Origin: a virus
Reading direction: 5' to 3' (one strand)
DNA: 20,964 nucleotides
IMG/VR virus record: IMGVR_UViG_3300024261_000181
Coordinates: 1-20,964 of that record
The position numbers and the translations under genes were made by a program. Shown here piece by piece: positions 1-14,580 of this stretch. The first letter of the stretch is position 1; every line of letters begins with the position of its first letter. The notes under the pieces were generated by a model that saw only the letters and a program-made list of their open reading frames with translations, was not told where the DNA came from and searched no databases.

Positions 1-541
1 CAAATACTGCTGCACCTGAACCAGTTTCATCAGATAATACTCCTGCTAATTGTGCTGAAGTAGTTGCTGCAAATTGACTTAGAGGATTGGCTACAAGTGC
101 GTCTCCTGCTCCTACTGTGACTTCTGTTACTTGGTAGAATGTAGTTCCTCTTCTAATGAATAATACTCCTACTGTTTCTGATAGTGTTATGCTTCCTGCT
201 GAGGCTGTTATGAATGCTCCTTCTCCTGCCCCCGGAGATTGATTATGTCTTAATGTGATAGTATCTCCTGCGTCTGCATACAACCAAATTCTGTCGTTTG
301 CATTTGTGTTAGCATAAGTTACAAAGTCTAAATCGTCTGCTGTTCCTGATTCTGCTGCTACTATTGTTACTGTGTCTGTTACTGTTATTTCCCCGGATGT
401 GATTGTAATAATTGATTCTGTATTTCCCTCCATTCCTGTATCAAGAGGTGCTGCATTCCATTCATCTGTTCCTACCGGAGATGAACCATCATCTGCTACA
501 ACTACTGTAGTAGAGTGTTTACCTTTTGCTACTCGAGCCAT
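1..541 (-). CDS. Tail fibre-like virion protein, C-terminus cut by window edge
   Basis: The frame opens with ATG at 541 (MARVAKGKHSTT...) and stays open for 180 codons to the left edge, so only the N-terminal part is present. The visible protein is rich in Thr, Ser, Ala, Gly and Val with alternating beta-type segments (ITVTDTVTIVAAESG, ITLRHNQSPGAGE, ITLSETVGVLFIRRG), and it ends in the window with TSAQLAGVLSDETGSG, a segment common in phage tail fibres and other surface structural proteins. The start overlaps the stop of the preceding 50-aa gene in a TAATG, so translation is probably coupled. It lies at the distal end of the tail module, where receptor-binding proteins usually sit. A fibre or tail-tip role is inferred from composition and position; no catalytic motif is seen. 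Confidence 0.75.
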   Translation of the reverse strand, partial: MARVAKGKHSTTVVVADDGSSPVGTDEWNAAPLDTGMEGNTESIITITSGEITVTDTVTIVAAESGTADDLDFVTYANTNANDRIWLYADAGDTITLRHNQSPGAGEGAFITASAGSITLSETVGVLFIRRGTTFYQVTEVTVGAGDALVANPLSQFAATTSAQLAGVLSDETGSGAAVF

Positions 542-693
542 TATGCTGTCATCCTCTTAACTTTACCTGTTGACTCATTTCTTAATGTTACTCTAATGTC
601 TTCTTTGAATTGAATTTTCTCAGCAATACCATTACCACGGTTAATTTTCTCTAACATTTTAAATAAACCACCAAGCGTATTTTTAAAACGCAT
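541..693 (-). CDS. Small basic hypothetical protein (50 aa) in tail-tip operon
   Basis: A 50-codon frame starts at ATG 693 (MRFKNTLGGLFKMLEKINRG...) and ends with TAA at 543-541. The last A of this stop is the A of the next gene's ATG (TAATG). It starts 5 nt after the stop of the upstream 203-aa gene, so all three genes look like one operon. The protein is Lys/Arg-rich, with a short amphipathic N-terminal helix and a beta-like C-terminal half (IRVTLRNESTGKVKR). Small proteins of this size often precede tail fibre genes in tailed viruses, but no family is recognised and no function is proposed. It fills the gap between its neighbours exactly, which supports its being real. Confidence 0.6.
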   Translation of the reverse strand: MRFKNTLGGLFKMLEKINRGNGIAEKIQFKEDIRVTLRNESTGKVKRMTA

Positions 694-698
694 TAGGG

Positions 699-1310
699 TT
701 AAACTCCGTTAAAAGTATGATTAACGAATATCTTTAGTGTATCAGCAGCAGTCTTGTCAAAGGAAGAAATACTCCAGTGTGTCAAAACTTTGGTTGCTCC
801 AGATGGAGTTGCTCCACCAACGTGAACACATCCACCGATGATAGCAGTTTGGTTAAAGTCACCAGTAGTCCAACTTGTTAACCAAGTAACCACATCAGTT
901 CCTGCACCAGTGTTATCTGTATCACTGTCATTAGTTAAAGGATAAGTACCATCAATTGCTTTTCTTGAAGCAGTTACAGGGGTTGTAAGTTCGTTATATG
1001 TATCTGCTTTTGCTGGGGTTGCAGAGCCAGTTCTTAATTCTTGTCTGCCGGATGTACCATCGAAATCACTGGTTGGTGTTTCGGCTGCTGACATTTCAGC
1101 ATAGTATAAATCTCCGTCATTAGTTACAATATTATGAGTATAATTCCAAGTTTTGTCTAAAGTATCCATATTTTGTCTTACAATACAGATGTTATTTGAT
1201 GGGTCTAATTCGACACCTCTAGATAAGAAATTAGGCAAGTGGTCTTTCCAAGATTTATGTGCTTCTAGTCTTGCATCGACTGTATCAAAATTTGCTTCTT
1301 TAATTTCCAT
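699..1310 (-). CDS. Virion/tail-tip structural protein, unknown family (203 aa)
   Basis: ATG at 1310 is preceded by a TATA box at 1335-1344, fitting a leaderless transcript that would also carry the two genes downstream. The N-terminal 60 residues look helical (EANFDTVDARLEAHKSWKDH). The rest is Thr/Ser/Gly/Asp-rich beta-type sequence ending in DTLKIFVNHTFNGV, a hydrophobic beta strand at the extreme C-terminus like that of many small phage structural proteins. No enzymatic motif is visible. Position between the LamG tail protein and the fibre-like gene suggests a tail-tip or adhesin subunit; this is an inference from context. Confidence 0.7.
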   Translation of the reverse strand: MEIKEANFDTVDARLEAHKSWKDHLPNFLSRGVELDPSNNICIVRQNMDTLDKTWNYTHNIVTNDGDLYYAEMSAAETPTSDFDGTSGRQELRTGSATPAKADTYNELTTPVTASRKAIDGTYPLTNDSDTDNTGAGTDVVTWLTSWTTGDFNQTAIIGGCVHVGGATPSGATKVLTHWSISSFDKTAADTLKIFVNHTFNGV

Positions 1311-1334
1311 CTTGAAATTATATGGTCTATTCTA

Positions 1335-1344
1335 CCTTATAAAG
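1335..1344 (-). promoter_or_regulatory. TATA box for the 203-aa/50-aa/fibre operon
   Basis: On the minus strand this reads CTTTATAAGG, centred about 29 nt upstream of the ATG at 1310. It sits just beyond the stop codon of the preceding tail gene (1352). It has the spacing of an archaeal TATA element driving a leaderless or very short-leader mRNA. Confidence 0.7.
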
Positions 1345-1351
1345 ATTACTT

Positions 1352-3511
1352 TCAAGCACCCTTGTATTTTGTAGTCGTAGATGAAACTGTATCTACATCA
1401 GATATAATACTTCCAAGTGTTTCATAATAATCGAATTCAAATTCTCCTACTTTTAATATTGTTACTGCTTCTGGATATCTCCATTCTATTGATTTTATTG
1501 CTAGGTCTGATGTTGTTCCTGCTATTGTTCCCCCCTCTTGGTCTATAAGAGTACGTGTAGTAAAGTTATATGCTTTTAATGGATTTGCTATGTATACTCC
1601 ATTTCCCTCTCTTACAGAATTAACCAGTGTTGGTATACGAACTGTGTAACTTTTGTCAACATCTTTAAATAATGCTATGAATCTTGTTGCTAATGTTTCT
1701 AATCCTTTATCACCTGCTATATCTGCCACTGACCTTATTTGTGGAACATTTAGTTTTTTAGCATAGACACCATATTCAGTCTTTGAATTTGTATCATCTT
1801 TCTTAGTTAATATATTAGTTGCTTCATATTCATATTCTATATCTAATGTGTCTACTCCTGTTAATGCTGTTCCTAATGTTAATGTTGCATTTTCTACGTC
1901 TATTTGATATTCTCCTGCCCCCGGAGAAGTTGTAGGGTCATCTCCAATTTGGTTTAATAATACTCCTGTATCATCTACTCTTAGTCCTCCAATTGGATTA
2001 TGTGTTAAATCAAATACTAATCCAGCAGCACCCTGTGAATCACCTACAGTCATTTGTGATTCATGAAATTTAATTGGTAAATTGGTACCAACTACTGTTA
2101 TGTCATTAATGAGTTTAGTATCATCCTTTTTATCTGATGCTATTGTTACTCCTCTCTCACCATGAATAAATTCTTGATTAACTACTAATGACCCTGCTGT
2201 TTCAAGTATCATCACCTTATGAGGATATGTAAAAAAATCTACATCCCCACCTTCTATAAAATTTAATATTCTGATTAATACCCCTAGTTTACCCTCTGCT
2301 ATAAATTTGTATACCGTTTCACTTGTTATATTACTAATTATTCTGTAATTTGTGTCTGCACTTCTTACCATATCATGTATTATATTATCAGCATCTTGAT
2401 TCTCAAATAGATTAACTGTTCTGGTTGTAAGTTCCCAAGTGGCTGCTGGGTCTGCCCATATTCCAGAAGCATTTTCCTTAGAGTCAACAAGAATATCTAG
2501 AAATAATTTACCTTTTCCTTTAACATGTAATGTCTTATGATTGATTTTATCGTCAACTTTCCATACGGTTCCATATAATTTCTGTGTGAAGAATTGTGGT
2601 CTTTCGCCATATATTTTTGCTGCATCACTGTCCGATAATGTGCCACCAGAATATACTCTGGTTTGTGCAACCCTTGCCTTAGTAAAACTACCTCCTGCTT
2701 TATCCTTACCAAATAATAGATTTTCTGTATTATCTAAATCTCCTGATACTGAAGATGTTGTCATTTCTGTTAATGCTATAGGTACATTTGTTCCCCCCAC
2801 AGATATATGTAATGTACCTGTATTATCCCTATGAACCCTTACTAAACTCCATGCTGTAAACGACCCATGATGGTCTCCAGAATTATTAACATATGTTATA
2901 TCACTACCGGTGACTCCAGCAGTTCTATCTCTTACTATTATTTCATCATCGGTTGTTCCTAATACTTTATAAAATATTTCTATTCCGTTACCAGCTCCAG
3001 CAGTATCCCACTTGCTAAAAAGACAGTGTTCACTGTTTGATGATTCACCAGTAATTCTTTTAAACCATATATAAATATCAAACTGTCCTGTAAAATCTAA
3101 TACATTTGGTGATAATGACGGATGAGCTTCGGTGGGATTAACATATTCTAAATAATCACTAGAGCCATCATAATTAACAACATATCTATTTTTAAATTTA
3201 CCTGTTGCACTTTCCAATACATATGTAGGGGTGCCTACTTCATTATCGAATATTTCAAATCCGGCTTCATCTCTGCCACTATGTTGAAAATTCCATATAC
3301 CTTTAAGACTTGAAAGGTCTGCGATGTCTTGTAAATATCTTAAATTGTATTTTTGTTCTGCTGTAAAGTCTCCTGATATTGATACCTGTGCCGTGTCCAC
3401 TGCTCTCTTTCCTTCTCTTTTTACTATTGATGATAGTATTGGTGCTTTTTCTTGTTTTTGTATTACCCCGGAACTGTCTACTGTTTCTATGAAAGCTAAT
3501 ACTTTAGGCAT
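1352..3511 (-). CDS. Tail hub/tip protein with inserted LamG-type lectin domain
   Basis: The start is taken as ATG 3511 (MPKVLAFIET...), not the in-frame GTG at 3547, because AGGAG stands about 10 nt upstream and the GTG would overlap the previous gene by 23 nt. The protein is 719 aa. Residues 1-50 are a hub-like beta region. About residues 62-305 match a concanavalin A-like/LamG fold: FDIYIWFKR, then LFSKWD, GNGIEIFYK, and the closing ARVAQTRVYSGGTLSD, the usual end strand of LamG_3 domains. From about 310 a tail-hub-like region resumes (LYGTVWKVDDKINHKTLHVKGKG) and continues to a beta-rich C-terminus that contains SPGAGE. The layout resembles a siphovirus baseplate hub carrying a sugar-binding insertion. 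Position after the tape measure gene supports this. Lectin activity is inferred. Confidence 0.75.
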   Translation of the reverse strand: MPKVLAFIETVDSSGVIQKQEKAPILSSIVKREGKRAVDTAQVSISGDFTAEQKYNLRYLQDIADLSSLKGIWNFQHSGRDEAGFEIFDNEVGTPTYVLESATGKFKNRYVVNYDGSSDYLEYVNPTEAHPSLSPNVLDFTGQFDIYIWFKRITGESSNSEHCLFSKWDTAGAGNGIEIFYKVLGTTDDEIIVRDRTAGVTGSDITYVNNSGDHHGSFTAWSLVRVHRDNTGTLHISVGGTNVPIALTEMTTSSVSGDLDNTENLLFGKDKAGGSFTKARVAQTRVYSGGTLSDSDAAKIYGERPQFFTQKLYGTVWKVDDKINHKTLHVKGKGKLFLDILVDSKENASGIWADPAATWELTTRTVNLFENQDADNIIHDMVRSADTNYRIISNITSETVYKFIAEGKLGVLIRILNFIEGGDVDFFTYPHKVMILETAGSLVVNQEFIHGERGVTIASDKKDDTKLINDITVVGTNLPIKFHESQMTVGDSQGAAGLVFDLTHNPIGGLRVDDTGVLLNQIGDDPTTSPGAGEYQIDVENATLTLGTALTGVDTLDIEYEYEATNILTKKDDTNSKTEYGVYAKKLNVPQIRSVADIAGDKGLETLATRFIALFKDVDKSYTVRIPTLVNSVREGNGVYIANPLKAYNFTTRTLIDQEGGTIAGTTSDLAIKSIEWRYPEAVTILKVGEFEFDYYETLGSIISDVDTVSSTTTKYKGA

Positions 3512-3524
3512 GTTAAATATTCTC

Positions 3525-4358
3525 CTATGGACTCGCTTGTACACCATCTGGCGTAGTAGCAGTTTCGTCAGTTAATGGGTATTTTGCACTCCAAATTCCT
3601 TTTCCATCAGTGCTGTTTGCCCTGATTCTTACCTGTATGTATTCATTTGCATCAAATGTGTCATCTGGATTAGTAAACGGTGAACTGGCTTGTCCATATT
3701 TCTTACTTCGTATTGCACCTGTAGTTGTGTTGAAGAATTCTAAATCATAATCTACTATTGCGTCAGCTCCTCCCTTATATGTTGGTGCAGTCCATGTTGA
3801 TGTTACTCTACCAGTTGCTCCACCGGGGTCAGTCAAACCAATACTTGTAGGTGGGAATGGTGTGTCTCCATCCATTGTTGTTACCACACTTCCCTCTAAG
3901 AATGTTAGTCTTGCCATTAATGTTATTGGTGAGCCAGAAGTAGTATCGAATGAAATATTATTTACAAATCCAAAGTATGTTAAATCATCATTTACTCCTG
4001 TTAATTCACTGTAGTTTATCTTTAACATGAATCTATGTTGTAATGATGACCCTTGCATGTTTTTTGATAGGTATAGTAGTTGTTCTCTTACTGTTTGTAC
4101 TGCTGAGTCTTGTTTTCCTCCCCCACCTAAATCTGTATCTGAGGCAACCAATGTCCATGATAGAGATATCTGTGTTGTATTACCTTCTACTTTTACTAAT
4201 ACATTCTCTTCCGAGGTTTCTTCTGGTAACGGCATTGGTGATATAGGTGTTCTTACATCTATATTTATTGAGTTGAAATTATTTATAGTATATGTGAATT
4301 GGTCGGAACCTGTTTCCTCATCAGTTTCAATTACTTTATGTAATGTTATAGTTACCAT
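3525..4358 (-). CDS. Tail/baseplate protein with C-terminal fibronectin type III domain
   Basis: A protein of 277 aa. Residues 1-165 are a beta-rich module (MVTITLHKVIETDEETG...) compatible with a distal-tail or baseplate protein. After a Pro-rich joint (TPFPPTS) residues about 168-268 look like one FN3 domain: GRVTSTWTAP (the Trp strand), DAIVDYDLEFFN, and EYIQVRIRANSTDGKGIWS (the Y/RxRAxNxxGxGxWS signature). FN3 domains are common, dispensable surface-binding additions on tail proteins. The ATG overlaps the tape measure stop in TAATG, so translation is likely coupled. Position directly after the tape measure gene is where distal tail proteins lie in siphoviruses; that assignment is from synteny. 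Confidence 0.75.
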   Translation of the reverse strand: MVTITLHKVIETDEETGSDQFTYTINNFNSINIDVRTPISPMPLPEETSEENVLVKVEGNTTQISLSWTLVASDTDLGGGGKQDSAVQTVREQLLYLSKNMQGSSLQHRFMLKINYSELTGVNDDLTYFGFVNNISFDTTSGSPITLMARLTFLEGSVVTTMDGDTPFPPTSIGLTDPGGATGRVTSTWTAPTYKGGADAIVDYDLEFFNTTTGAIRSKKYGQASSPFTNPDDTFDANEYIQVRIRANSTDGKGIWSAKYPLTDETATTPDGVQASP

Positions 4359-5782
4359 TATTTATTCAATTGTCCTTGAAGAGTTGATACTAAATGGTCT
4401 GCTGTTGATTTATCTGGTATACTAGCTATATTCACTGTTACGTTTGTTACTTTCTGACCTAATTCATTAACACCTAATTCTTTAAGTCTTTCCGGGTCAT
4501 TCATTCCGAGTGAATCTCTTAATCCTATTGTAAACCAATTTTTAAATTCGGTTGCTCCGGGAATTAAATCCACGAATTGGGCTGCGAGCATAGCTGTTCC
4601 ACCTGAACCACCCCTAATACCACCTAATCCTAATTTAGCGTTGAATCCAATTCCACCGCCACCTTGACCAAGTCCACCTAAGATTCCTCCTACTCCAGTT
4701 CCAGATGGAACTTTCGATGAAGGTAACTTAATTCCATTCTTTGCAGCCCATTTTTCATATGCTGATGGGTCATATTTTCCATTATTAAGCCAAGGAACAC
4801 TACCTCCTTTTGCAGATGGAGTGGGTGGTTTTGGAGACGGGGTTGAAGATGAGTTTGGTATTCCCGGTTTAGGTATATTAGTTGCAGCCCATTTTTTATA
4901 TGCCTCTGCATCATATTTACCATTCTTCATCCACGGGGTTGAAGTTGAGTTTGGTACTGGTATTTTTCCGGGGTTTGGTGTGGGTGGGGTTACTGTTTTT
5001 TGTATGAATTGTTTAACCCAATCTGGCATTGGTATTTTAATACTAGGTAATTTAATTTTGTCTAATTTAAGTACGCCTGTCATGAATTTATTAACTGATG
5101 TTCTAAATTTACTTGGGTTTGATTTTTTGAAAGAGTCTAATGTTTTTTGTAATTTATCTACTCTTTTGGAATGGGCACTTTCTATTTTTTTTTCTTCTAT
5201 GCCCATAATATTTCTTACTATTCTTCCATGAATTTTACCTACTACTTTTCCTGCTTTACCAGCACCTTTGATTGCTATTCCTCCACCAATAATTGTGGCT
5301 GCTGCTGTCGAAAGTTGTAATACAATACCGTTTTCTCCTGAAAGATTTTTTAGAAAACCTGTAGCCATATTACCTATAGTTGTTCCAAGGTTTTTCATAA
5401 CTGGATATACATCTTGATACCAAGGTATGATGAATTTCCTTAACATGTAAACCATTATAGGTCTTAACATGAATCCTATGAAATCTCCTATTGGTCTTAA
5501 TATTAACATTACTGAGAATTGCATTAACTTTGCCATTTGTTTTAACATTGGTGAGAAACTTATTAGTGATTTTAATGCTCCTACTACTAATCCCCCTGCC
5601 AATATTTTACCTAGGATTCCACTGGTATCATTTGCCTCCTTTATAGCCTGAACTTTTTTCATTTGTGCTATTAGTTTACTGTTTACACCCTTTGATTCTA
5701 AAATTGCTTTTTTATGCTGAGATAATGCATCTACTAATTTCCCTGCTTTTAGGTTAATATTTACAGATTCTTCCTCAGACAT
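4358..5782 (-). CDS. Tail tape measure protein (474 aa)
   Basis: The N-terminus is helical and charged. Residues about 55-150 hold several hydrophobic, membrane-like helices (ILAGGLVVGALKSLISFS, FSVMLILRPIGDFIGFML), and another Gly/Ala segment lies near 155-180 (AAATIIGGGIAIKGAGKAGK). A Lys-rich helical stretch follows, then a Pro/Ser-rich linker with two copies of a W-NGKYD-AY-KWAA-N motif, and a Gly-rich region before the C-terminus. Hydrophobic helices inside a long helical protein, directly after the G/G-T chaperone genes, are characteristic of tape measure proteins. At the usual ratio of about 0.15 nm per residue it would set a tail of roughly 70 nm, short for a siphovirus (inference). 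A TATA box lies about 26 nt before the ATG. Confidence 0.85.
   Translation of the reverse strand: MSEEESVNINLKAGKLVDALSQHKKAILESKGVNSKLIAQMKKVQAIKEANDTSGILGKILAGGLVVGALKSLISFSPMLKQMAKLMQFSVMLILRPIGDFIGFMLRPIMVYMLRKFIIPWYQDVYPVMKNLGTTIGNMATGFLKNLSGENGIVLQLSTAAATIIGGGIAIKGAGKAGKVVGKIHGRIVRNIMGIEEKKIESAHSKRVDKLQKTLDSFKKSNPSKFRTSVNKFMTGVLKLDKIKLPSIKIPMPDWVKQFIQKTVTPPTPNPGKIPVPNSTSTPWMKNGKYDAEAYKKWAATNIPKPGIPNSSSTPSPKPPTPSAKGGSVPWLNNGKYDPSAYEKWAAKNGIKLPSSKVPSGTGVGGILGGLGQGGGGIGFNAKLGLGGIRGGSGGTAMLAAQFVDLIPGATEFKNWFTIGLRDSLGMNDPERLKELGVNELGQKVTNVTVNIASIPDKSTADHLVSTLQGQLNK
4741..4938 (-). repeat. Two-copy W..NGKYD..AY.KWAA.N motif in the tape measure protein
   Basis: Copy 1 (about 4882-4938) encodes PWMKNGKYDAEAYKKWAATN and copy 2 (about 4741-4798) encodes PWLNNGKYDPSAYEKWAAKN. 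Both are flanked by Pro/Ser-rich linkers. The copies diverge at the DNA level, so the duplication is old or the motif is under selection as a structural unit. Confidence 0.8.
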
Positions 5783-5802
5783 ATATAATTAATTCCTTAC
5801 CT

Positions 5803-5813
5803 GATTAATAAAC
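5803..5813 (-). promoter_or_regulatory. TATA box of the tape measure gene
   Basis: The minus strand reads GTTTATTAATC, centred about 26 nt upstream of the ATG at 5782, and it overlaps the last codons of the G-T chaperone frame, which ends at 5805. Confidence 0.6.
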
Positions 5814-6056
5814 TTTCCTTCCATCAGGCATGTTTATTGTTTGGTCACCTATAGGCATAGAATCCTCTTTGCCTTGACTTTTATTCTGCTCTATAATTAA
5901 AAGCATCATTTTTCTAAGATACTCTATTTCTTGTCTTTGGACTTTTTCTTTATCCCAACCGAAGTTGTTTGCACAGAAGGCGTAGACTGAGTAGGTTGCT
6001 CTTTCGAGTTTATCTCTCCAACGTAAGTCTCCATCCAATCCACCAGATACTTGTCT
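5805..6056 (-). CDS. T domain of tail assembly chaperone, expressed as G-T by -1 frameshift
   Basis: This frame is -1 relative to the 136-aa gene and follows it with a long overlap. From 6056 it gives 83 residues: RQVSGGLDGDLRWRDKLERA, then a helical region with AFCANNFGWDKEKVQRQEIE, LRKMMLLIIEQ and a tail ending DGRKVY. The segment FGWDKEKVQRQEIEYL resembles the short helical T region of siphovirus G-T chaperones (FGW-pattern followed by an acidic-hydrophobic helix). The fusion would be 93 residues of G plus these 83, 176 aa. A TTG at 6038 could in principle start the frame alone, but the slippery site upstream, the direction of the shift and the position before the tape measure gene all favour a frameshift product. 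Confidence 0.75.
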   Translation of the reverse strand, partial: RQVSGGLDGDLRWRDKLERATYSVYAFCANNFGWDKEKVQRQEIEYLRKMMLLIIEQNKSQGKEDSMPIGDQTINMPDGRKVY

Positions 6057-6334
6057 AAAGGGAATTTCTTCGATACCTCCTGAACTATCGGTTGGAAAAC
6101 GGCATAATCTAATTGGTTAATAACAGGTTCGCTTATTCTGAATGGTGCTTTAACTAAAGCTCTTAATACTAAATTCATTCTGTATTTGGCTAGTGATATT
6201 TTTGGTTCTCCTGTAGTTTCATCTATAGATGTGCATTTTTCTAATAGTGATTCTACCTCCCCAAAATTTAAAGAATCTTTGAATTCAAATTCTTCCTCTT
6301 TGCCTTCATAAGAAAAGTTCCTTGTATAAGTCAT
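5924..6334 (-). CDS. Tail assembly chaperone G (136 aa)
   Basis: The frame starts at ATG 6334 (MTYTRNFSYEGKEEEFEFKD...) with a TATA box about 26 nt upstream. The N-terminal 30 residues are a beta-type segment, then come helices (FGEVESLLEKCTS, MNLVLRALVKAPF, FQPIVQEVSKKFPLD) and a polar, Lys-rich tail (GIKKKSKDKK). It lies between the tail tube and tape measure genes, exactly where lambda-type G/G-T chaperones lie, and it has a -1 overlapping frame. The chaperone coats the tape measure protein during tail assembly and is not part of the finished virion (known for the family). The assignment rests on synteny and frameshift architecture more than on sequence identity. Confidence 0.8.
   Translation of the reverse strand: MTYTRNFSYEGKEEEFEFKDSLNFGEVESLLEKCTSIDETTGEPKISLAKYRMNLVLRALVKAPFRISEPVINQLDYAVFQPIVQEVSKKFPLDKYLVDWMETYVGEINSKEQPTQSTPSVQTTSVGIKKKSKDKK
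6056..6062 (-). other. Programmed -1 frameshift site C CCT TTA with upstream Shine-Dalgarno
   Basis: Read on the minus strand in the G frame the codons are TTC CCT TTA GAC, giving the canonical X XXY YYZ heptamer C CCT TTA. Both tRNAs re-pair in CCC TTT, after which the T frame continues (AGA CAA GTA). A perfect AGGAGG lies at 6081-6076, 13 nt upstream of the heptamer, similar to the stimulatory Shine-Dalgarno of E. coli dnaX. No clear downstream hairpin was seen by eye. Confidence 0.8.
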
Positions 6335-6354
6335 TAAATATTTAATAAATTACT

Positions 6355-6364
6355 AGTATTAAAG
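6355..6364 (-). promoter_or_regulatory. TATA box of the G/G-T chaperone gene
   Basis: The minus strand reads CTTTAATACT, centred about 26 nt upstream of ATG 6334, in the short gap after the tail tube stop codon (6372). Confidence 0.55.
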
Positions 6365-6371
6365 TCTTGCC

Positions 6372-7397
6372 CTAAGAACCTGCTTTCTCTGCTGTATCTT
6401 CATTCTCTGCTACAATCACACAACTTTTAGCTTGCCATGTTATTTCTTCAAATACAGGTTCAACTGGCTCAATTCCAGATACGTTATGTGATTCAATACC
6501 AATATCTGATAATGTTATTGTAATCGTTCTTTCATTTGTAGATGTTAATCCATTGGTGAATACCATTTCAATTGATGCTTGTTCTCTATCTACAGTTGTG
6601 GCAGTATCTTTACCAATCTGAGCAAGTAAGTCATCTAAATATGTGTGGTCTACCATTGAGGCTTGGAATCTACCAGTTATTTCAAATAGTTGTCTGTATG
6701 ATGATACGGCTTGTGCATCATCTAATCCATACAAAAGATTTGCTCCCTGTGTAAATGTAATGTCTGCACTTTGTACCTGTGCTACAGTTCCACCGTTATA
6801 TTTTAATTCAGCATGAGCAAATGTGTAAGGGAAGTTTGTAGTTGCTGTAAGATTAGATGCTTTTGCATAATTATCTGTATGTGTTGAACCTTGTGTTACT
6901 GTATCAGTTGTTAATAATGCTTCTTTACCATATTGGAAATCACATGAACAGTTTACTAAATCATCTACATTTGCTGAAATATTAAGAGAGTTTAATATAC
7001 TACCTTCCATTCTTCTTGTTACTGAACCAGTTTCTCCTTCAAAACCAACTTCAATCATTGCTGACCTTACTGCTGTTTCTCCTGAAGATATATCATATGT
7101 GAATGTATTAGGTGTTGGTGCTGCACTATATGTTGGTGCTCCAAATAATAAACCAAACATCCACGGTTCAGATAATACAAAGTCTATTCCTATAGAACCT
7201 GTCTGTTTACCATATGCATAGTCTGTTGGCTCTATACTGCATAATTGGGCTAATGTTTTCTTTGAGTTATTAAGTGACCAACTTGATACTTTTTGTTGTA
7301 AACCAAATGCTTTAAAATTAGGTGTCGATAATTCTCCTCCTCCAAATGTAGTCTCAAAATCATATTGAAGATACGAATTAGCACCTGTACGAACCAT
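6372..7397 (-). CDS. Major tail tube protein (341 aa)
   Basis: The protein is almost wholly beta-type, with regularly spaced Thr/Val/Ile strands and an N-terminal segment (TGANSYLQYDFETTFGG, then GLQQKVSSWSLNNSKKTL) like that of phage tail tube proteins that build hexameric rings. Other typical pieces are GSIGIDFVLSEPWMFGLLFG, MIEVGFEGETGSVTRRMEG, and the C-terminal FEEITWQAKSCVIVAENE. It stands directly before the tail chaperone and tape measure genes and after a terminator-like protein, which is the standard tail order. A strong TATA box (CTTTATAAG) about 27 nt upstream of the ATG gives it its own promoter, sensible for an abundant virion protein. No sheath gene follows, arguing for a non-contractile tail. 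Confidence 0.8.
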   Translation of the reverse strand: MVRTGANSYLQYDFETTFGGGELSTPNFKAFGLQQKVSSWSLNNSKKTLAQLCSIEPTDYAYGKQTGSIGIDFVLSEPWMFGLLFGAPTYSAAPTPNTFTYDISSGETAVRSAMIEVGFEGETGSVTRRMEGSILNSLNISANVDDLVNCSCDFQYGKEALLTTDTVTQGSTHTDNYAKASNLTATTNFPYTFAHAELKYNGGTVAQVQSADITFTQGANLLYGLDDAQAVSSYRQLFEITGRFQASMVDHTYLDDLLAQIGKDTATTVDREQASIEMVFTNGLTSTNERTITITLSDIGIESHNVSGIEPVEPVFEEITWQAKSCVIVAENEDTAEKAGS

Positions 7398-7418
7398 ATG
7401 TATGATTCTTCATTCTGG

Positions 7419-7428
7419 CTTATAAAGT
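7419..7428 (-). promoter_or_regulatory. TATA box of the tail tube gene
   Basis: The minus strand reads ACTTTATAAG, centred about 27 nt upstream of ATG 7397. It lies just before the end (7433) of the upstream tail terminator-like gene. Confidence 0.75.
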
Positions 7429-7432
7429 TTCC

Positions 7433-7858
7433 TTATGGGTCTAATATTCTGTAGGTGACTTCCATTACGTGTCTATACATATTTCTATAATTATGTGTCA
7501 GGTTTCGGCTTAGAGTAATTCTTAGGTCTGTGTAGCCTGTTCTTCTTACTTGTGCTTTTAATATTTTGTCTATTTGGTCTACTACTGCTCTGTGTCTTGT
7601 TTCTGTTCCATATCCCCGGATATCTATGACTGCAATAGGATGATGTAAGTGATTTGTGCCATAAAGACTAAAATAATCAACCTTCTCAGAACCGGGTGTT
7701 ATTACTACCACATCCTGAGTATCATCAATTATACCTACAGCTTTCTCTTCCCAGTTTACAGTGAATTTAGGCTTTGGAACATCATCATTATCATAATTCC
7801 ATTCAGTATTCATCATGTTGATTATATCGTCAATTGCATCATATGACCCTACACCCAT
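7433..7858 (-). CDS. Tail terminator/tail completion-like protein (141 aa)
   Basis: The ATG at 7858 overlaps the stop of the preceding gene in TGATG, so translation is probably coupled. The layout fits the small alpha/beta fold of tail terminator proteins: a first helix (YDAIDDIINMMNTEWN), a VVVITPGSEKVDYFSLYG strand-turn, a strand HPIAVIDIRGYGTETRHR, a helix AVVDQIDKILKAQVRR, and the final strands DLRITLSRNLTHNY and HVMEVTYRILDP. The final basic-to-beta segment ending in a conserved-looking VTYRILDP is typical of such proteins. Position between neck and tail tube genes supports a role in capping the tail and joining it to the head. The assignment is by fold pattern and synteny. Confidence 0.65.
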   Translation of the reverse strand: MGVGSYDAIDDIINMMNTEWNYDNDDVPKPKFTVNWEEKAVGIIDDTQDVVVITPGSEKVDYFSLYGTNHLHHPIAVIDIRGYGTETRHRAVVDQIDKILKAQVRRTGYTDLRITLSRNLTHNYRNMYRHVMEVTYRILDP

Positions 7859-8607
7859 CAGTTTGCACTTCCTTTGTTCAATGTGTGTGTTTTACTTCCA
7901 TAGTTGATATCTGTGGTGTTTTTATATACTGTTATACTTGTAGGATGTATTCCAACTTCTGACATCTTACTTCTTAATTTCCATGATAGGAATTCTAATG
8001 AGCGATTTACCTGTTCTGGTGTTTTCTTTTTATATTGTATTCCTGATGATGATACTCCTCCTGTTTTTAATTTTCTCCCCCCTTTATTATACCAATAATG
8101 ATTATATACTTTCATTTTTAAGTTTGGTCTCTTTCGTAGATATATTCTTTTCATCCAGTCCAAGAAATCTCTTCCACCCTCATTATCTCTCCCAGAGAAT
8201 ATATTTCCATCTCTTGGTGTAAGTGTTGGGTTTTTGATTAGTTCTGGTTCATCTATTATGTCAGGCTCTGGTGTTGCGTTATAATCATGAGTATCCACAA
8301 CTACTGCCCCCGGTGGAACACCAAATTTCTCTATATTATATCCTACAGATTCAGTTACTTTTGATTCTTTTGCTACTACATTTGTTAAAGAGTCAACTAT
8401 AGTTTGCGGTTTATCTGAGTCCATATCTGTTGTGTCTCCTATACCTTCTGCTGCTGCATATAGTTTTTCTATTAGGTCTCTTCTTCTTCTTCTTCTTTGT
8501 CCTTCTTGTCTTGGTGTTGTAGCTTCCCCACGCCTTTCAACTATACTGTGATTATATTTGTCAACTTCCATTTCTATGACCCTATCTATATCTGTTAGTC
8601 TTGCCAT
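7858..8607 (-). CDS. Neck/head-tail joining protein candidate (249 aa)
   Basis: The ATG at 8607 overlaps the upstream connector stop in TAATG. Residues 1-60 are helical and strongly basic, including six consecutive Arg encoded by six AGA codons. The middle is acidic and Pro-rich (NATPEPDIIDEPELIKNP). The C-terminal 110 residues hold an aromatic-basic core (FLDWMKRIYLRKRPNLKMKV, YNHYWYNKGGRKLK), a helix (TPEQVNRSLEFLSWKLRSKM) and a final strand (SITVYKNTTDINYG). Helices and strands of this sort, between connector and tail terminator genes, suggest a head-closure or neck protein (HK97 gp10-like position). No family is recognised with certainty. Confidence 0.55.
   Translation of the reverse strand: MARLTDIDRVIEMEVDKYNHSIVERRGEATTPRQEGQRRRRRRDLIEKLYAAAEGIGDTTDMDSDKPQTIVDSLTNVVAKESKVTESVGYNIEKFGVPPGAVVVDTHDYNATPEPDIIDEPELIKNPTLTPRDGNIFSGRDNEGGRDFLDWMKRIYLRKRPNLKMKVYNHYWYNKGGRKLKTGGVSSSGIQYKKKTPEQVNRSLEFLSWKLRSKMSEVGIHPTSITVYKNTTDINYGSKTHTLNKGSAN
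8479..8496 (-). repeat. (AGA)6 trinucleotide repeat coding for six Arg
   Basis: Six perfect tandem AGA codons on the minus strand encode R6 in the N-terminal third of the neck protein. Such tracts can change length by slippage without loss of frame. Confidence 0.9.
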
Positions 8608-9272
8608 TAGGCAATCGGAATAATCTCTTGACGTTGGTGTATGGTTCTATCTATATCTTCTTTCCATTGGTTTATTGAATCTCCCCAAGACCATCCACCT
8701 GAACCACCTACAGGCAATATGTCTGCTCTAAATGATGTTGATAGTAATTCTACTGCTACCATTTTTACACATGCCTCTTCAATGTCTAACGGAACAGTTG
8801 TGTCACCATAACGATAAGTAATTCTCATTCTGTTCTTTCTCATTACTGTAAAGATAAATCCTCTCATGTAAAGTCTTCCATATTCGGGGTCAAGTACAAA
8901 CCCACCATCAGCATTATCTGTAATATCATTATAGTTTGCAGACCCACCAGTATTCCCTCCAGAAGCACCATCGTATACTTCAAGTGAATCTCCTGAACTA
9001 GATACTAGTCCACCGTTTGCGTCTGTTCTGATTTTTCTATGTCGGAGGAATAAAGGAGTACCCCAACCAAATTCATATATAATAGGCATATCATGGACTT
9101 CAGTAGTGGCAGTTGCTTCACGCCATGCGTGACCAGTTCTTCTGTCTATTTCATCTTCTTTTCTGTTGATTAGTTTAATTACTTGTGCTTTGTTTGGTGT
9201 GGTTGTGTCTGTTATATCTACCCTCAAAAAATCTGCAACATCTTGCACAGTACAGTAGACAGGAGTAACCAT
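8607..9272 (-). CDS. Head-tail connector/adaptor protein (221 aa)
   Basis: The N-terminus (YCTVQDVADFLRVDITD, then KAQVIKLINRKEDEIDRRTG) is the typical opening of gp6-like head-tail connectors: a helix, a short loop, then a helix with ExxIDxxTGxxW, here EIDRRTGHAW. A beta-rich insertion follows, with FLRHRKIRT, a Gly/Ser/Asn loop, and LDPEYGRLYMRG, the characteristic strand LD.e.G.l......R.......YRYG. The end is a helix with PLDIEEACVKMVAVELL, the usual closing helix. This combination, after the capsid genes and before tail genes, makes a connector assignment good. It would sit below the portal ring. A weak TATA box is about 27 nt upstream. Confidence 0.8.
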   Translation of the reverse strand: MVTPVYCTVQDVADFLRVDITDTTTPNKAQVIKLINRKEDEIDRRTGHAWREATATTEVHDMPIIYEFGWGTPLFLRHRKIRTDANGGLVSSSGDSLEVYDGASGGNTGGSANYNDITDNADGGFVLDPEYGRLYMRGFIFTVMRKNRMRITYRYGDTTVPLDIEEACVKMVAVELLSTSFRADILPVGGSGGWSWGDSINQWKEDIDRTIHQRQEIIPIA

Positions 9273-9294
9273 ATGCTTAAATATGTGCTCCTAT

Positions 9295-9303
9295 CTTTTA
9301 AAG
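9295..9303 (-). promoter_or_regulatory. TATA-like box of the connector gene
   Basis: The minus strand reads CTTTAAAAG, centred about 27 nt upstream of ATG 9272. It is less canonical than its neighbours but keeps the same spacing. Confidence 0.5.
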
Positions 9304-9337
9304 TTTGCTCTAGTAACTAAACATGTATTACCTTACT

Positions 9338-9421
9338 TCAAGCTGATTTTATTGCTTCTTGCCCGGCAGAACTTGATGCTAGTTCATTAAATTTGCCTGT
9401 ATCTAAAGTGCCTAAACCCAT
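9338..9421 (-). CDS. Candidate micro-ORF (27 aa) abutting the upstream virion gene
   Basis: A 27-codon frame starts at ATG 9421, immediately after the TAG of the 138-aa gene (TAGATG), and ends in TGA at 9340-9338. It encodes MGLGTLDTGKFNELASSS followed by a short Ala/Glu/Lys helix. The exact abutment and the otherwise empty 150-nt gap argue that it may be translated by termination-reinitiation. There is no Shine-Dalgarno of note. It may also be chance or the remnant of a longer gene. Confidence 0.4.
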   Translation of the reverse strand: MGLGTLDTGKFNELASSSAGQEAIKSA

Positions 9422-9838
9422 CTAAGATTCGCCACGGTGATATATGTCTAATACACCTTGACTTGACCCAACGGCTGCTTTGATTCTAACAACACATCTA
9501 TTATAAGGATTGTCTAAAGTCTCTATTACAGGTGCTGCGGCTGCTGTTAATGTCGTTTCTGCTTTTATTTGTACCCAGCCATTTCCATAATCTGTGGCAT
9601 CTGTACCGGTCATATCAGTGTGGTCTGGTAACCAATCTGCTGTTGCCCAAATTTCATATTTTAAATCATTTGTAATACAATATAATGTAAATACTGAAGT
9701 TCTGACATTTCTACAGTCAATATCTAAACATGTTGCATAAGCGTCAGTTGATGTTAATGCTAAATTTCTATTATGTAGCCCAACTATTGAACTTCCATCA
9801 TTTGTGGTTTTCTCTCTACGTTGGTCTTCCTGAGCCAT
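9422..9838 (-). CDS. Small beta-rich virion protein (138 aa), possible capsid decoration
   Basis: ATG 9838 has a strong TATA box about 26 nt upstream and an oligo-T terminator before that, so the gene has its own transcription unit. After a polar N-terminus (MAQEDQRREKTTNDGSS) the protein is made of Thr/Val-rich strands (TSVFTLYCITNDLKYEIWAT, GNGWVQIKAETTLTAAAA, RCVVRIKAAVGSSQGVLDIY). It ends in a charged HRGES. Several Cys (4) are present without a zinc-type spacing. It looks like a compact virion surface or head-tail protein, given its place between capsid and connector genes. The specific role is unknown. Confidence 0.65.
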   Translation of the reverse strand: MAQEDQRREKTTNDGSSIVGLHNRNLALTSTDAYATCLDIDCRNVRTSVFTLYCITNDLKYEIWATADWLPDHTDMTGTDATDYGNGWVQIKAETTLTAAAAPVIETLDNPYNRCVVRIKAAVGSSQGVLDIYHRGES

Positions 9839-9858
9839 ACGTAATTATGTATAGTCTA

Positions 9859-9868
9859 CCTTATAAAG
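9859..9868 (-). promoter_or_regulatory. TATA box of the 138-aa virion gene
   Basis: The minus strand reads CTTTATAAGG, identical to the element at 1335-1344, centred about 26 nt upstream of ATG 9838. Confidence 0.75.
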
Positions 9869-9871
9869 TTA

Positions 9872-9901
9872 TTGGAAAAAAAGAAAAAAGGGTGTAAAAA
9901 A
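9872..9901 (-). terminator. Oligo-T archaeal-type terminator after the 122-aa gene
   Basis: Just downstream of the TAG at 9902 the minus strand has three T tracts (T6, T6, T7) separated by short breaks, with no evident hairpin. Tandem U-tracts are the usual intrinsic terminator in archaea. Confidence 0.7.
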
Positions 9902-10270
9902 CTAAAATCCTACTACTCGTAGTTTACAGGTCATAGTGATAGAGTCGGCATCATCTGCTTCATCGAGGACTGCACTTGCAGTTCCTGATTCATATAGTTT
10001 TAGCTTCCCTGTTGCTGCTGCACCTAGGGCTGCTGGAACGTATTGGGGTATATTGCCTGTTGAAACCTCTAGAACTGTTACTGCAATAATTGTAGTGAGT
10101 CTGCCGTCTAGGGTTAAATCTAGGACGTTTCCTGCAATATCGTAATCTTCTGATGTATAGGTTACGTCTACAATTGCTGTTTTGAGTTTGGATAATAGTT
10201 CTGCTTGTATGGATAGTGTTTTCCCGGTTACTGATTGGTAATCGGAATTCACTGCGATTGCGAGAGTCAT
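9902..10270 (-). CDS. Small virion protein (122 aa), decoration/cement protein candidate
   Basis: The gene follows the major capsid protein directly and has its own TATA box and flanking oligo-T terminators, the mark of an abundantly and separately expressed protein. The sequence is a run of beta strands (KTAIVDVTYTSEDYDIAGNV, LTTIIAVTVLEVSTGN, DSITMTCKLRVVGF) with an Ala/Gly-rich loop (VPAALGAAATGKLKL). No catalytic motif, signal peptide or membrane segment is seen. Its size, fold type and position match capsid cement or decoration proteins of tailed viruses, but this is inferred from context and composition. Confidence 0.65.
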   Translation of the reverse strand: MTLAIAVNSDYQSVTGKTLSIQAELLSKLKTAIVDVTYTSEDYDIAGNVLDLTLDGRLTTIIAVTVLEVSTGNIPQYVPAALGAAATGKLKLYESGTASAVLDEADDADSITMTCKLRVVGF

Positions 10271-10289
10271 TAAAATATGTGGAAAGTCA

Positions 10290-10300
10290 TTATATATAAA
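10290..10300 (-). promoter_or_regulatory. TATA box of the 122-aa virion gene
   Basis: The minus strand reads CTTTATATATA, centred about 26 nt upstream of ATG 10270. Confidence 0.75.
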
Positions 10301-10302
10301 GA

Positions 10303-10320
10303 TTTAAAAAAATGAAAAAG
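10303..10320 (-). terminator. Oligo-T terminator after the major capsid gene
   Basis: About 16 nt after the capsid stop codon the minus strand reads CTTTTTCATTTTTTTAAA, two T tracts (T5, T7) without a hairpin, directly before the next TATA box. Confidence 0.65.
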
Positions 10321-10335
10321 TGGGAATTGGTTCGA

Positions 10336-11562
10336 CTAAAGTTTAATGTCTCTAATCTTGCCTTGTGATTTAAAGTGTCTACAGACAGTTTCTCCCATTG
10401 TTCTGAACAATGCTTTCTCAACAAGTGTGTTACTGTTGATAAATGGATAACCCGGAGTACGTCTTGTGGCTTCGTAATACTCGGTTGGAATTGCGACTTG
10501 AATTCCTAATCTAGGATAACCAAATCCTTCTGCATCAGAAGTATCTAATGCAAATAGTCTACCGACTTCAGTTCCTCCAGTAGTTGGAGCATCTTTGGTT
10601 GGTACAAATGGTATGCCGTAGAGTGAGTTTACGTGGATACCTACACCAGTTCCATCGAATGTTTTGATTCCGTTAACATCGACTTGTACAATCTTCTCAC
10701 CGTATGGGTTTGCGACCCTGACTTGTGGAAGGTATAAGCCTTGAATTTCGGAGTAAACTTCGTGGCTTCCTAAGAATACATTTGGGTCTTTACCAGCAGC
10801 AATTCTGATTTTTCTGAGGTGAGTTCTAATTACATCATCAGTTAAGACACCATCAGTACCTAAAGTACCGGATGCTGATTCAACTGTTGCATCGTAAGTA
10901 GTTCCACTATCTCTGTCAATTGCAGAGGTAGTTGCTTTCCAAGGGTCATAATAGTCTGTGTATGTACCGCCTTGTGAGTCTTCTTCAGCATCGGAAGAAA
11001 TAATTCTATCCAATGATTCAAAGTCATTAGTACCGGCAAAGTTTGCACTTGCAGCAGCAGCGTCAGTTGCTACATCATTCAAGAGAGCTTGATTGATGAG
11101 TTCTTTGTGCTGTACAGCCATATACAATCTTAATGAACCGAGTCCACCCCAAATATCGTCTTTACTGTGATTTGAGAGCCATTCCATAACTTCAGATGTA
11201 CTGAAAGTTAGTGCCATAGTCTTTGGTCTAACATCAATCTCAGCAATTGTAGGCTTGATTGTGTCAGGAATTACACCACCTTCTGCGACACCACCTTTAG
11301 AGGTGTTGCCTTGTGCTGTATCGACTGTTGGTCTTGCGGAAATAACCCTCCATCCAGATTTATCCCAAGGATATTTTGGTAAGATACCGAAAGCGTTTGC
11401 TTCAAGATTTAATTGTGCCCATGCATATGCACCAAAGACTGCGTTGAAAACGCCTCCTGTTGATGTTAACATTGGGTTGTTGGTCTTGGAGATTAAGCTT
11501 CGGCTAAATCCACCGTAGTATAGAGACTCTAATTCGTCCATAGTTCTAATGCCGTTCACCAT
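10336..11562 (-). CDS. Major capsid protein, HK97 fold (408 aa)
   Basis: The protein follows the protease and scaffold genes. It has the usual order of HK97-fold elements: a helical N-arm, an E-loop-like segment with Gly/Ile and a beta return (GGVAEGGVIPDTIKPTIAEID, interrupted in the middle by a turn), the KTMALTFSTSEVMEWLS strand-helix, a spine-like helix (LYMAVQHKELINQALLND), and a P-domain/A-domain C-terminus (DDVIRTHLRKIRIAAGKDPN, FLGSHEVYSEI, YGIPFVPTKDAP). The start overlaps the scaffold stop in TAATG, coupling the two. A 90-residue Ser/Thr/Asp-rich stretch in the middle (about 190-240) may be an added surface domain. Assignment rests on layout and synteny. Confidence 0.8.
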   Translation of the reverse strand: MVNGIRTMDELESLYYGGFSRSLISKTNNPMLTSTGGVFNAVFGAYAWAQLNLEANAFGILPKYPWDKSGWRVISARPTVDTAQGNTSKGGVAEGGVIPDTIKPTIAEIDVRPKTMALTFSTSEVMEWLSNHSKDDIWGGLGSLRLYMAVQHKELINQALLNDVATDAAAASANFAGTNDFESLDRIISSDAEEDSQGGTYTDYYDPWKATTSAIDRDSGTTYDATVESASGTLGTDGVLTDDVIRTHLRKIRIAAGKDPNVFLGSHEVYSEIQGLYLPQVRVANPYGEKIVQVDVNGIKTFDGTGVGIHVNSLYGIPFVPTKDAPTTGGTEVGRLFALDTSDAEGFGYPRLGIQVAIPTEYYEATRRTPGYPFINSNTLVEKALFRTMGETVCRHFKSQGKIRDIKL

Positions 11563-12149
11563 TATAAAGTACCCTCCTTATCGTATTTTTCAGCAATGTC
11601 CAATAGACTTTTTCCTACCATTGACAAGTTCTCAAAACCTGCATTTCTGCATTTTGAGAGAATTTGGTATGGCAAGAGGTCTTCTTGTGCATTTTGTGCT
11701 TTTGACACGTTTGTGGTTGGTCTTTCGACTGGTGATGTTACATGAGATGAGATAGATTTCTCTTGCATCTTAAGGTCACCTTTATCTCCTTCTGGTTTAT
11801 CTTCGACTTTTCCATTGGCATCTTGGATACCGGATTGGTCACCAGTTGGGTAAGGGTCTTTTGGTGCAGTGACTTTGTCACCAATATCTTCGCTATCAGC
11901 ATTGCCTTTTGGGCTTTGTGGTAGGTCAGTAGGTGTCTCCATTGCTTTCTCCATCTTGTCTTGTCTTGCGACAATTGATTTGAGTGCTTCTAGGATTGCC
12001 TTATTGGTTTCTTCTTTGTCATCATCGTCAGAAGCTTTCACTTCTGGTTTGATTTCGTCTTTCTCGTCCTCTGCTTTTTTCTCGAAGGGATTTTCTTTTT
12101 CCTCTTCGTCAGCTTTGGCTATGGTTTTTATGTCATCTAATGTGGTCAT
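11562..12149 (-). CDS. Acidic scaffold-like protein (195 aa)
   Basis: The sequence is highly charged and low in hydrophobic residues, with acidic-basic runs at the N-terminus (DDIKTIAKADEEEKENPFEK) and a central coiled-coil-like helix (NKAILEALKSIVARQDKMEK). A long Pro/Ser/Asp/Lys disordered region follows, then a C-terminal helix of mixed character (YQILSKCRNAGFENLSMVGK). This composition and its place between the prohead protease and the major capsid protein are typical of scaffolding proteins, which are cut away during maturation. Translation into the capsid gene is coupled through TAATG. It has no enzyme motif. A shorter internal-core function cannot be excluded. Confidence 0.7.
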   Translation of the reverse strand: MTTLDDIKTIAKADEEEKENPFEKKAEDEKDEIKPEVKASDDDDKEETNKAILEALKSIVARQDKMEKAMETPTDLPQSPKGNADSEDIGDKVTAPKDPYPTGDQSGIQDANGKVEDKPEGDKGDLKMQEKSISSHVTSPVERPTTNVSKAQNAQEDLLPYQILSKCRNAGFENLSMVGKSLLDIAEKYDKEGTL

Positions 12150-12164
12150 GTTGTTATAATAATT

Positions 12165-12186
12165 CTATATAAAGGGGTTTATAAAG
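12165..12186 (-). promoter_or_regulatory. Double TATA element before scaffold-capsid operon
   Basis: Two boxes, CTTTATAAAC (12186-12177) and CTTTATATAG (12174-12165), precede ATG 12149 by about 32 and 21 nt. They lie over the last codons of the protease gene. This would allow strong transcription of scaffold and capsid genes independent of the protease. Confidence 0.65.
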
Positions 12187-13946
12187 ATTATGTTTCCTAC
12201 GCCATTTACTAAATGTCCTTCAGGAGATACTTCTACATTGTCACCATACTGTGCTATTCCTTCTGCTGATGTTGAAAACTTGTTCATTTCCATTACCCAT
12301 TCTTCTTCTGCTTTGTTTTTAATTGCTTTTAGTATAGGCATTGGTTCTTCTTTGTAGTTTTCTATATAGTCTTTTATTGCTAGGTGTAGTTCTGAGTTGT
12401 TGTCTGTGTTTTTATTTTCCTCCCAATATTTTCTTACTCCTTTCTCAAATTCACATTCTTTCTTTGCAATAGGGTCTGTAGGCTTGTTTCCTAGTTTGGT
12501 TGGGTCTCCTAGTTTCTCTGGAGTTATTGCGTCTGCGTCTTTCTTTTTCTCGTCTTTAGGGTCTGATTCTGATGATGTTACTTGGTTGCTTCCCCCGGTT
12601 CCGTTTACTGACGTGTTATATGCACCTAACCCTCTTGGGTTTTCAGTGCCTGTACCGACTATATCTTTCTGAATTATGATTGAACATCCACATGATTTCT
12701 TAAAGTATTGTCTATCTCCATCAGGTTTTGCTACTTCGTCTACACCTGTTTCAGATAGGTCTGGTTTTTCAGAACAACTTGCTTTTTCATCACATTGATT
12801 ACCTACACCTGTTGAACCCATTACATGGTCTGCTTTATGTTTTGGTGCATTAGGATTCATTCCATGTTCATTATTATGACGTGAGCCACAGTATGCTTCA
12901 GCGTCTCTAATGTCATCTTTATTTCCTTCTCCAGAAATACAAGATTCAGTTGAACCATATTCTTTTTGACCGGCATGAACTTTAGTATCTTTATCTACGT
13001 GTTGCTGAATTGAGCCACAATATCCACCGGCATTGTGTACCGATGGGTCTTTCTTTGCGTGTGCCTCACAGGCTGCAAATTCCATTTTTCCATATTTAGT
13101 AGGTAATGGTTTAGTCTTATCGTCTGGTCTCTTTAAATCAGTTTCAGGAAAGTCTTCCTCGTCTTGTCCGTAAATATCTTTTCCTGCTTCATACCAAATA
13201 GTACCATTAGAATCAATCATATGTATTTTTAATTTTTCTTCTCCTTCTTCAGTTGCTTCTGGGTTATAACCTTTGGCTTCACCAATATGAGTTTCAACTT
13301 CTTTAGGAACATCGTCTTGGTCTATTGGAGTACCCATATCTGCTTTTCTTACTTCTGCGTTGATATAACAACTTGTACCATCACATTTGGCTTTTAATTC
13401 TTCTCCATCTTTTTCTACATGGACTGCCTTTGCTAATGGGTTTACATCTGTAATTAATGCGAATGCAACTGCTGGGTCTTCACATACTGCCACTTCATAT
13501 ATCTCTAGGTCTTTTAATCTGTATGCCATCGTTCCATCTGATTGTGGTACTGGTATTCTGTTTGCTTTTGTTGCCCCTCCGAATGATAATCCTTTGTAAG
13601 TACCATCAACTATTTGTTTCCAAATGAAATCATCTAATGCTGTGTTTGAATGTATTTTACCTAAAATTTTAATTGCTGGGAGTTTCTCACCATTTTTAGC
13701 CTGAAGTGTTACTTTTTCAAAATTGATACCTCTGCCTACAATACGATTTGAATGAGTGTCTGACATTGGTGCATTTCTCTCCATCCATATTGGAAGAGCC
13801 TTGTATAGTTCATCTATATCTGTAATCTCTCCTTGACGGTCTTTAATCTCTACTGATAATATGCCTTCAAAGAAACGGTCTGTATTATCTTCTTTAATAA
13901 CTAGTTGTTTTGTGACAAAATTGGACACAGTTATCTCGTCTGTCAT
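12165..13946 (-). CDS. Prohead maturation protease with long Cys/His-rich extension (593 aa)
   Basis: Residues 1-180 match the caudoviral prohead protease (S78/XkdF-like) plan: a beta start (FFEGILSVEIKDRQGEITD), a candidate catalytic His in SDTHSNRIVGRG (His65), a candidate catalytic Ser in YKGLSFGG (Ser121), and the closing LKDLEIYEVAVCEDPAV. These enzymes cut scaffold and capsid protein in the prohead. The remaining about 410 residues are unusual for the family, which normally totals 200-300 aa. They are acidic and disordered-looking, with two copies of a C-(16)-YCG type motif (FAACEA...GGYCGSIQQH and ESCISG...EAYCGSRH), two pairs of Cys near 385-391 and 419-421, and many His. The C-terminus (about 470-560) has Lys/Glu helices. 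A fused scaffold or core segment is possible. It has its own TATA box. Confidence 0.75.
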   Translation of the reverse strand: MTDEITVSNFVTKQLVIKEDNTDRFFEGILSVEIKDRQGEITDIDELYKALPIWMERNAPMSDTHSNRIVGRGINFEKVTLQAKNGEKLPAIKILGKIHSNTALDDFIWKQIVDGTYKGLSFGGATKANRIPVPQSDGTMAYRLKDLEIYEVAVCEDPAVAFALITDVNPLAKAVHVEKDGEELKAKCDGTSCYINAEVRKADMGTPIDQDDVPKEVETHIGEAKGYNPEATEEGEEKLKIHMIDSNGTIWYEAGKDIYGQDEEDFPETDLKRPDDKTKPLPTKYGKMEFAACEAHAKKDPSVHNAGGYCGSIQQHVDKDTKVHAGQKEYGSTESCISGEGNKDDIRDAEAYCGSRHNNEHGMNPNAPKHKADHVMGSTGVGNQCDEKASCSEKPDLSETGVDEVAKPDGDRQYFKKSCGCSIIIQKDIVGTGTENPRGLGAYNTSVNGTGGSNQVTSSESDPKDEKKKDADAITPEKLGDPTKLGNKPTDPIAKKECEFEKGVRKYWEENKNTDNNSELHLAIKDYIENYKEEPMPILKAIKNKAEEEWVMEMNKFSTSAEGIAQYGDNVEVSPEGHLVNGVGNIIFINPFI

Positions 13947-13968
13947 GTATATCTAGTTGACGCTAATG

Positions 13969-13979
13969 CTTTATAAATA
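13969..13979 (-). promoter_or_regulatory. TATA box of the prohead protease gene
   Basis: The minus strand reads TATTTATAAAG, centred about 28 nt upstream of ATG 13946, just after the oligo-T terminator. Confidence 0.7.
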
Positions 13980-13987
13980 TTCTTAAT

Positions 13988-13999
13988 AATAAAAAAAGA
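13988..13999 (-). terminator. Oligo-T terminator after the two-TM protein gene
   Basis: Four nt after the stop at 14003 the minus strand reads CTTTTTTTATTA, a T7 tract without a hairpin, directly before the next TATA box. Confidence 0.6.
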
Positions 14000-14002
14000 G
14001 GG

Positions 14003-14236: not shown

Positions 14237-14258
14237 GTAAATCCAACCATTAATCAGG

Positions 14259-14268
14259 TATTTAAACT
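14259..14268 (-). promoter_or_regulatory. TATA box of the two-TM protein gene
   Basis: The minus strand reads AGTTTAAATA, centred about 28 nt upstream of ATG 14236. Confidence 0.6.
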
Positions 14269-14278
14269 TGATGTAGAG

Positions 14279-14560: not shown

Positions 14561-14580
14561 GTGTGTAATCCACTGTTATT

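Follow-up and report, generated by a model that had tools for sequence, protein, structure and literature searches.

A predicted programmed -1 ribosomal frameshift at the slippery heptamer CCCTTTA very probably (we put the probability at about 0.9) yields two tail products, G and the fusion G-T, in the archaeal-type virus analysed here, probably with the aid, in the window and most related viruses, of a Shine-Dalgarno (SD)-like AGGAGG upstream of the slip site. The window is the whole stretch of DNA that was analysed, namely an IMG/VR virus record of 20,964 bases. A preliminary description of this DNA had proposed such a frameshift, and comparative evidence from related loci, the predicted fold of G and the order of the surrounding genes now strongly support it.

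Layout and conservation of the G-T locus

The elements of the locus, together with the genes flanking it, are as follows.

6372..7397, minus strand: tail tube (major tail) protein, encoded immediately upstream of G (Pfam Phage_tube_2, E 3e-21)
5924..6334, minus strand: G, putative tail assembly chaperone, zero-frame product of 136 aa (open reading frame, AF2 model, fold match)
6076..6081, minus strand: AGGAGG, SD-like candidate stimulator with a 13 nt spacer (anti-SD energy, synonymous shuffle, family-wide peak)
6056..6062, minus strand: slippery heptamer C CCT TTA (conservation of heptamer and codons across relatives)
5924..6062, minus strand: G/T overlap, apparently dual-coded (depressed synonymous change in both frames)
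5805..6062, minus strand: T, -1 frame extension of 85 codons counted from CCC (open frame, conservation, pN/pS, helical model)
4358..5782, minus strand: likely tape measure protein, encoded immediately downstream of T (position and length; gene order shared with HVTV-1 and HCTV-5)

On the minus strand the site reads ...GTT CAG GAG GTA TCG AAG AAA TTC CCT TTA GAC AAG..., and direct reading confirms the particulars given in the preliminary description. T lies in the -1 frame relative to G and is free of stops from the heptamer to 5805; C CCT TTA stands in the register of the G frame at 6062-6056; AGGAGG, at 6081-6076, lies 13 nt upstream of it; and the fusion comes to 176 aa, namely 93 G residues (through the Leu encoded by TTA) followed by 83 T residues. 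Neither motif is rare by itself in the window (AGGAGG, 10 seen and 6.8 expected; CCCTTTA, 4 seen and 3.0 expected), and the two at this exact spacing occur there once, at G-T. A AAAGAAAAAG near the stop codon of G, picked out by eye as an alternative slip site, was rejected, as slippage there would remove the conserved core of T. The gene order, tail tube followed by G/T and then a large open reading frame, matches that of HVTV-1. By its position and length the large frame is likely the tape measure protein; it has no family match in Pfam or PHROGs.

Used alone as a query, the G sequence retrieved no relatives from IMG/VR or from phages, and relatives were therefore obtained through the portal (147 relatives in IMG/VR, 80 retained) and the tail tube protein (181 relatives, 80 retained). 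Their loci were scored with profile models for T and for G up to the slip site, built from 25 sequences comprising the window and portal-derived loci in which the slip site had been pre-located by CCCTTTA. Because the profile sequences were chosen through their CCCTTTA, the loci found through the tail tube provide the cleaner test. The region was carried by 102 loci; grouped at 90% identity, they make up 55 lineages.

G followed by T in the -1 frame is present in all 102 related IMG/VR loci, and each has an in-register heptamer at the junction, CCCTTTA in 95/102 and CCCTTTT in 7/102. The conservation to which the preliminary description had looked as a check is thus complete for CCCTTT(A/T). 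The seven loci with CCCTTTT (L119-L125) are those nearest to the window by tail tube; the change replaces Leu with Phe and, on the sequence, leaves the site slippery. Codon usage at the site is equally constrained. Codon 0 is CCT in 55/55 lineages, yet CCT makes up ~38% of the Pro codons upstream, where CCA is the most frequent; codon +1 is TTA in 54/55 lineages (~48% of Leu codons); and the codon preceding the slip ends in C in 55/55 lineages, the background at comparable sites being 0.26. The lineages share ancestry, and products of these codon frequencies are a guide only and not true probabilities.

Substitution patterns were analysed in 40 equal-spacing pairs with overlapping membership. 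In these, G has a pN/pS of 0.21 ahead of the slip, and the part of the locus that encodes T only has one of 0.31, which indicates that T is under purifying selection. In the G/T overlap pS falls to ~0.19 in either frame, versus 0.36 and 0.50 outside it, a depression of synonymous change that we read as the mark of dual coding. Taken as comparative sequence evidence, the G-T arrangement and the conservation of its heptamer are evidently not due to chance.

Identity of the proteins and of the virus

Neither G nor T of the window matches a family in Pfam or PHROGs, and scans with alignments gave only weak hits, in PHROGs for G and in Pfam for T. In VIA-align 2 the AF2 model of G, with pLDDT mostly 88-97 over residues 1-100, superimposes on YqbN (3klu; Z 8.1, rmsd 2.4 over 83) and on the HK97 tail assembly chaperone (2ob9; Z 4.8). 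These two matches come from VIA-align 2 only, and a Foldseek search of the PDB with G gave no significant match. The model also matches annotated viral tail assembly chaperones with E down to 3e-5, including FS-gp41 of Mu and one protein from a Haloarcula virus. The modelled structure thus indicates a tail-assembly-chaperone fold for G; together with gene order and the comparative evidence, it supports the identity proposed earlier. T is modelled as a small helical domain, and its only good match is to an archaeal-virus protein that is itself uncharacterised; no annotated homologue of T was found.

The earlier assignment to an archaeal-type virus is likewise borne out, and the virus fits the archaeal tailed viruses of the Caudoviricetes by its structural genes and by the archaeal replication genes of its relatives. 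Among 50,697 phage records, the portal and MCP match only Haloarcula viruses, so that all named portal and capsid relatives are haloarchaeal viruses. RadA and MCM are encoded by a relative that shares 99.4% identity with the window across 12.5 kb, and both also occur in other relatives. One relative (G038; L254 1495-2058) encodes, close downstream of its capsid gene, a 187-aa AmoC that appears from a reading of its sequence to be of thaumarchaeal type, and a distant portal lies on a contig of a Thaumarchaeota MAG. A search for tRNA genes that might assign a host found none. From the Haloarcula-virus matches, RadA and MCM, AmoC and the portal of the MAG, marine Thaumarchaeota, archaea that oxidise ammonia, are the likely hosts. 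The AmoC of G038 also links these viruses to ammonia oxidation. At one end of the contig, an open reading frame at 19296-20006 (plus strand) carries a metallopeptidase-like HEFGHGVFGLPH motif.

The SD-like element and alternative readings of the locus

The AGGAGG of the window has an anti-SD energy of -11.1 (synonymous-shuffle p 0.015), and across the family the affinity for the anti-SD core is on average strongest where AGGAGG lies, at -19 to -14 from the heptamer. The excess over synonymous codon choice has a mean z of -1.95 and -1.76 in two overlapping intervals at the site, versus -0.48 to +0.22, that is no SD excess, at the other G positions tested. Glu at codon -6 is encoded by GAG in 22/22 cases, versus 25% elsewhere, and the SD is kept while the residues vary (AAG GAG, TCG GAG, AAG GGG, GAG GGG). 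These patterns indicate that an SD at this position, and nowhere else in G, is under selection. The anti-SD to which it would pair, CACCTCC at the 3' end of the 16S, is intact in 20/20 genomes of the order to which the Thaumarchaeota MAG belongs.

When an SD of -6 kcal/mol or better is taken as clear, it is clear in 38/55 lineages and absent in 17/55, and its state has changed only ~3 times on the tree. The clade nearest to the window (L119) also lacks it. The SD is therefore not required, and its distribution marks it as an apparently lineage-specific stimulator and not an obligate part of the signal. The preliminary description had looked to conservation of AGGAGG at synonymous positions; selection beyond synonymous expectation bears this out, and universality does not hold. 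A conserved 3' stimulatory structure was not found (mean z between -0.2 and -0.3, and no helix in the consensus after the slip). The lineages without an SD (L128-L161) have CCCTTTAGGG, and their consensus forms a weak hairpin that overlaps the slip site, too little to support a claim.

The genes of the window had been described as otherwise leaderless. This holds for most of them, which lack an SD leader, and fails for some with SD-like leaders; the leader of the major capsid gene, at 11562-11580 on the minus strand, is a perfect AAGGAGGG and the strongest SD among the window gene starts examined.

The frameshift could be real and the SD-like motif nevertheless play no part in stimulating it. 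The motif overlaps a conserved Lys-Glu-Val-Met stretch, and 17 lineages manage without it, as might be expected were it a by-product of the amino acid sequence or were it to serve another role, such as a folding pause or a G-frame start at a nearby ATG. A by-product would not readily account for an excess over synonymous expectation that is restricted to this place, nor for retention of the motif through changes of residue, and the nearby ATG, which the window does not have, stands just 2 nt from GGAGG and so leaves too little room for initiation. We regard a non-stimulatory motif as unlikely, and as the most serious competitor to the stimulated frameshift.

Separate production of T is far less probable. 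Here the AGGAGG, or G-rich sequence, would recruit a ribosome to a T-frame TTG or GTG 24 nt past the heptamer (6038 in the window), and many lineages, among them the window, do have such a codon at +24. It is, however, a side effect of the Asp-Trp/Glu-Trp that G conserves, and AGGAGG, at ~40 nt from it, is too far away. Moreover, 25/55 lineages have no ATG, GTG or TTG in the first 24 codons of T, which rules out independent initiation as the general mechanism; T has no conserved start of its own, as the preliminary description implied. Internal initiation would also leave the invariant in-register heptamer unexplained.

That the frame change reflects gene decay, or a mistake in sequencing or assembly, can be set aside with near certainty. 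The head and tail modules of the window come from different sources relative to G001/G002, and the contig may be chimeric; the G-T locus nonetheless lies well inside the tail module, T is under apparent purifying selection, and the identical arrangement in 102 loci already refutes an artefact. The window divides into 1-8440 and 8449-20964, the head half being 99.4% identical to L002 and L003 and the tail half different (39% aa identity in the tail tube protein), by either a natural module swap or a chimeric assembly. Slippage by RNA polymerase in place of the ribosome, known from some bacterial genes at long homopolymer runs (reviewed in PMC5009743), is just as improbable at a site whose runs are only three bases long (CCC, TTT) and whose codon register is conserved.

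Proposed mechanism and relation to known frameshift systems

Under the programmed frameshift favoured here, most ribosomes would translate G up to its own stop codon and release the 136-aa protein. Some would move back by one base on C CCU UUA, where the P-site tRNA-Pro would exchange CCU for CCC and the A-site tRNA-Leu would exchange UUA for UUU, and would then continue in T to give the 176-aa G-T. Where it is present, AGGAGG would pair with the anti-SD of archaeal 30S subunits engaged in elongation and make slippage more frequent, much as the hexamer of bacterial dnaX does. If lambda is a guide, G may bind the tape measure protein and T may recruit the tail tube protein, the two products being made in a fixed ratio.

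Lambda, with the slip site G GGA AAG, and other phages likewise place a G/GT chaperone between tube and tape measure, extend it in the -1 frame by a segment without its own start, probably at a fixed ratio, and share the chaperone fold (HK97 2ob9, YqbN 3klu); their hosts, by contrast, are bacteria, and no sequence homology to them was found. E. coli dnaX, with the heptamer A AAA AAG, has an SD-like hexamer ~10 nt upstream and a hairpin 3' of the site. The window resembles it in the hexamer upstream of a slippery heptamer, here with a 13 nt spacer, whereas its family has no conserved 3' structure.

The closest parallels are archaeal. Frameshifting by -1 between G and T is predicted in the Haloarcula viruses HVTV-1, HCTV-1, HCTV-2 and HCTV-5, with the heptamers GGGAAAC (HCTV-1), AAAAAAC (HCTV-2) and GGGAAAG (HCTV-5) (PMC5009743, PMC8211752). 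Like the present family, HVTV-1, HCTV-5 and HCTV-1 are archaeal tailed viruses in which the tail tube gene is followed by G/GT with a -1 shift at X XXY YYZ. Unlike it, they use GGGAAAG or GGGAAAC in place of CCCTTTA, they slip near the stop codon of G, whereas G of the window family runs on for 61-157 nt, their T domains bear no detectable relation to those described here, and their hosts are halophilic. G shows a weak homology to that of HVTV-1 (E 5e-5 in a six-sequence search); hhalign of G against a single HVTV-1 G returned a probability of 3, so that this homology draws on weak HMM evidence. HVTV-1 (L116 3965), HCTV-5 (L117 5613) and HCTV-1 (L118 5351) likewise have an SD-like motif ahead of the slip site; HVTV-1 and HCTV-5 are identical at the site, which leaves only two independent cases. 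No mention of these motifs was found in the literature read.

A 2021 review describes the -1 frameshift in fucA of Saccharolobus solfataricus as the only reported case in Archaea (PMC8211752). It is akin to the present proposal as -1 frameshifting by archaeal ribosomes, and differs in being in a cellular gene with another slip site, the slippery sequence not being conserved in full-length homologues (PMC8211752). G-GT frameshifting is widespread in phages and, in haloarchaeal viruses, predicted only (PMC5009743, PMC8211752), and no description of selection on an upstream SD in archaea was found in the open-access papers that were searched. The preliminary description held that SD-stimulated frameshifting is scarcely documented in archaea; this stands for the SD element, which is new, and must be tempered for G-GT frameshifting in archaeal viruses, which had already been predicted. 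What the sequences appear to add is a family of thaumarchaeal viruses, a heptamer that differs from those predicted earlier and hardly varies, and selection acting on the SD upstream of it.

The chances seem about even that archaeal tailed viruses in general stimulate -1 frameshifting through SD:anti-SD pairing during elongation. If so, reading-frame control through mRNA-rRNA pairing would operate in Archaea, including hosts whose viral genes mostly start without an SD. Annotation is affected as well, in that T is lost or called as a separate open reading frame unless the frameshift is modelled. The natural variants with and without an SD, and with two heptamers, would make the role of the archaeal anti-SD in frame maintenance directly testable.
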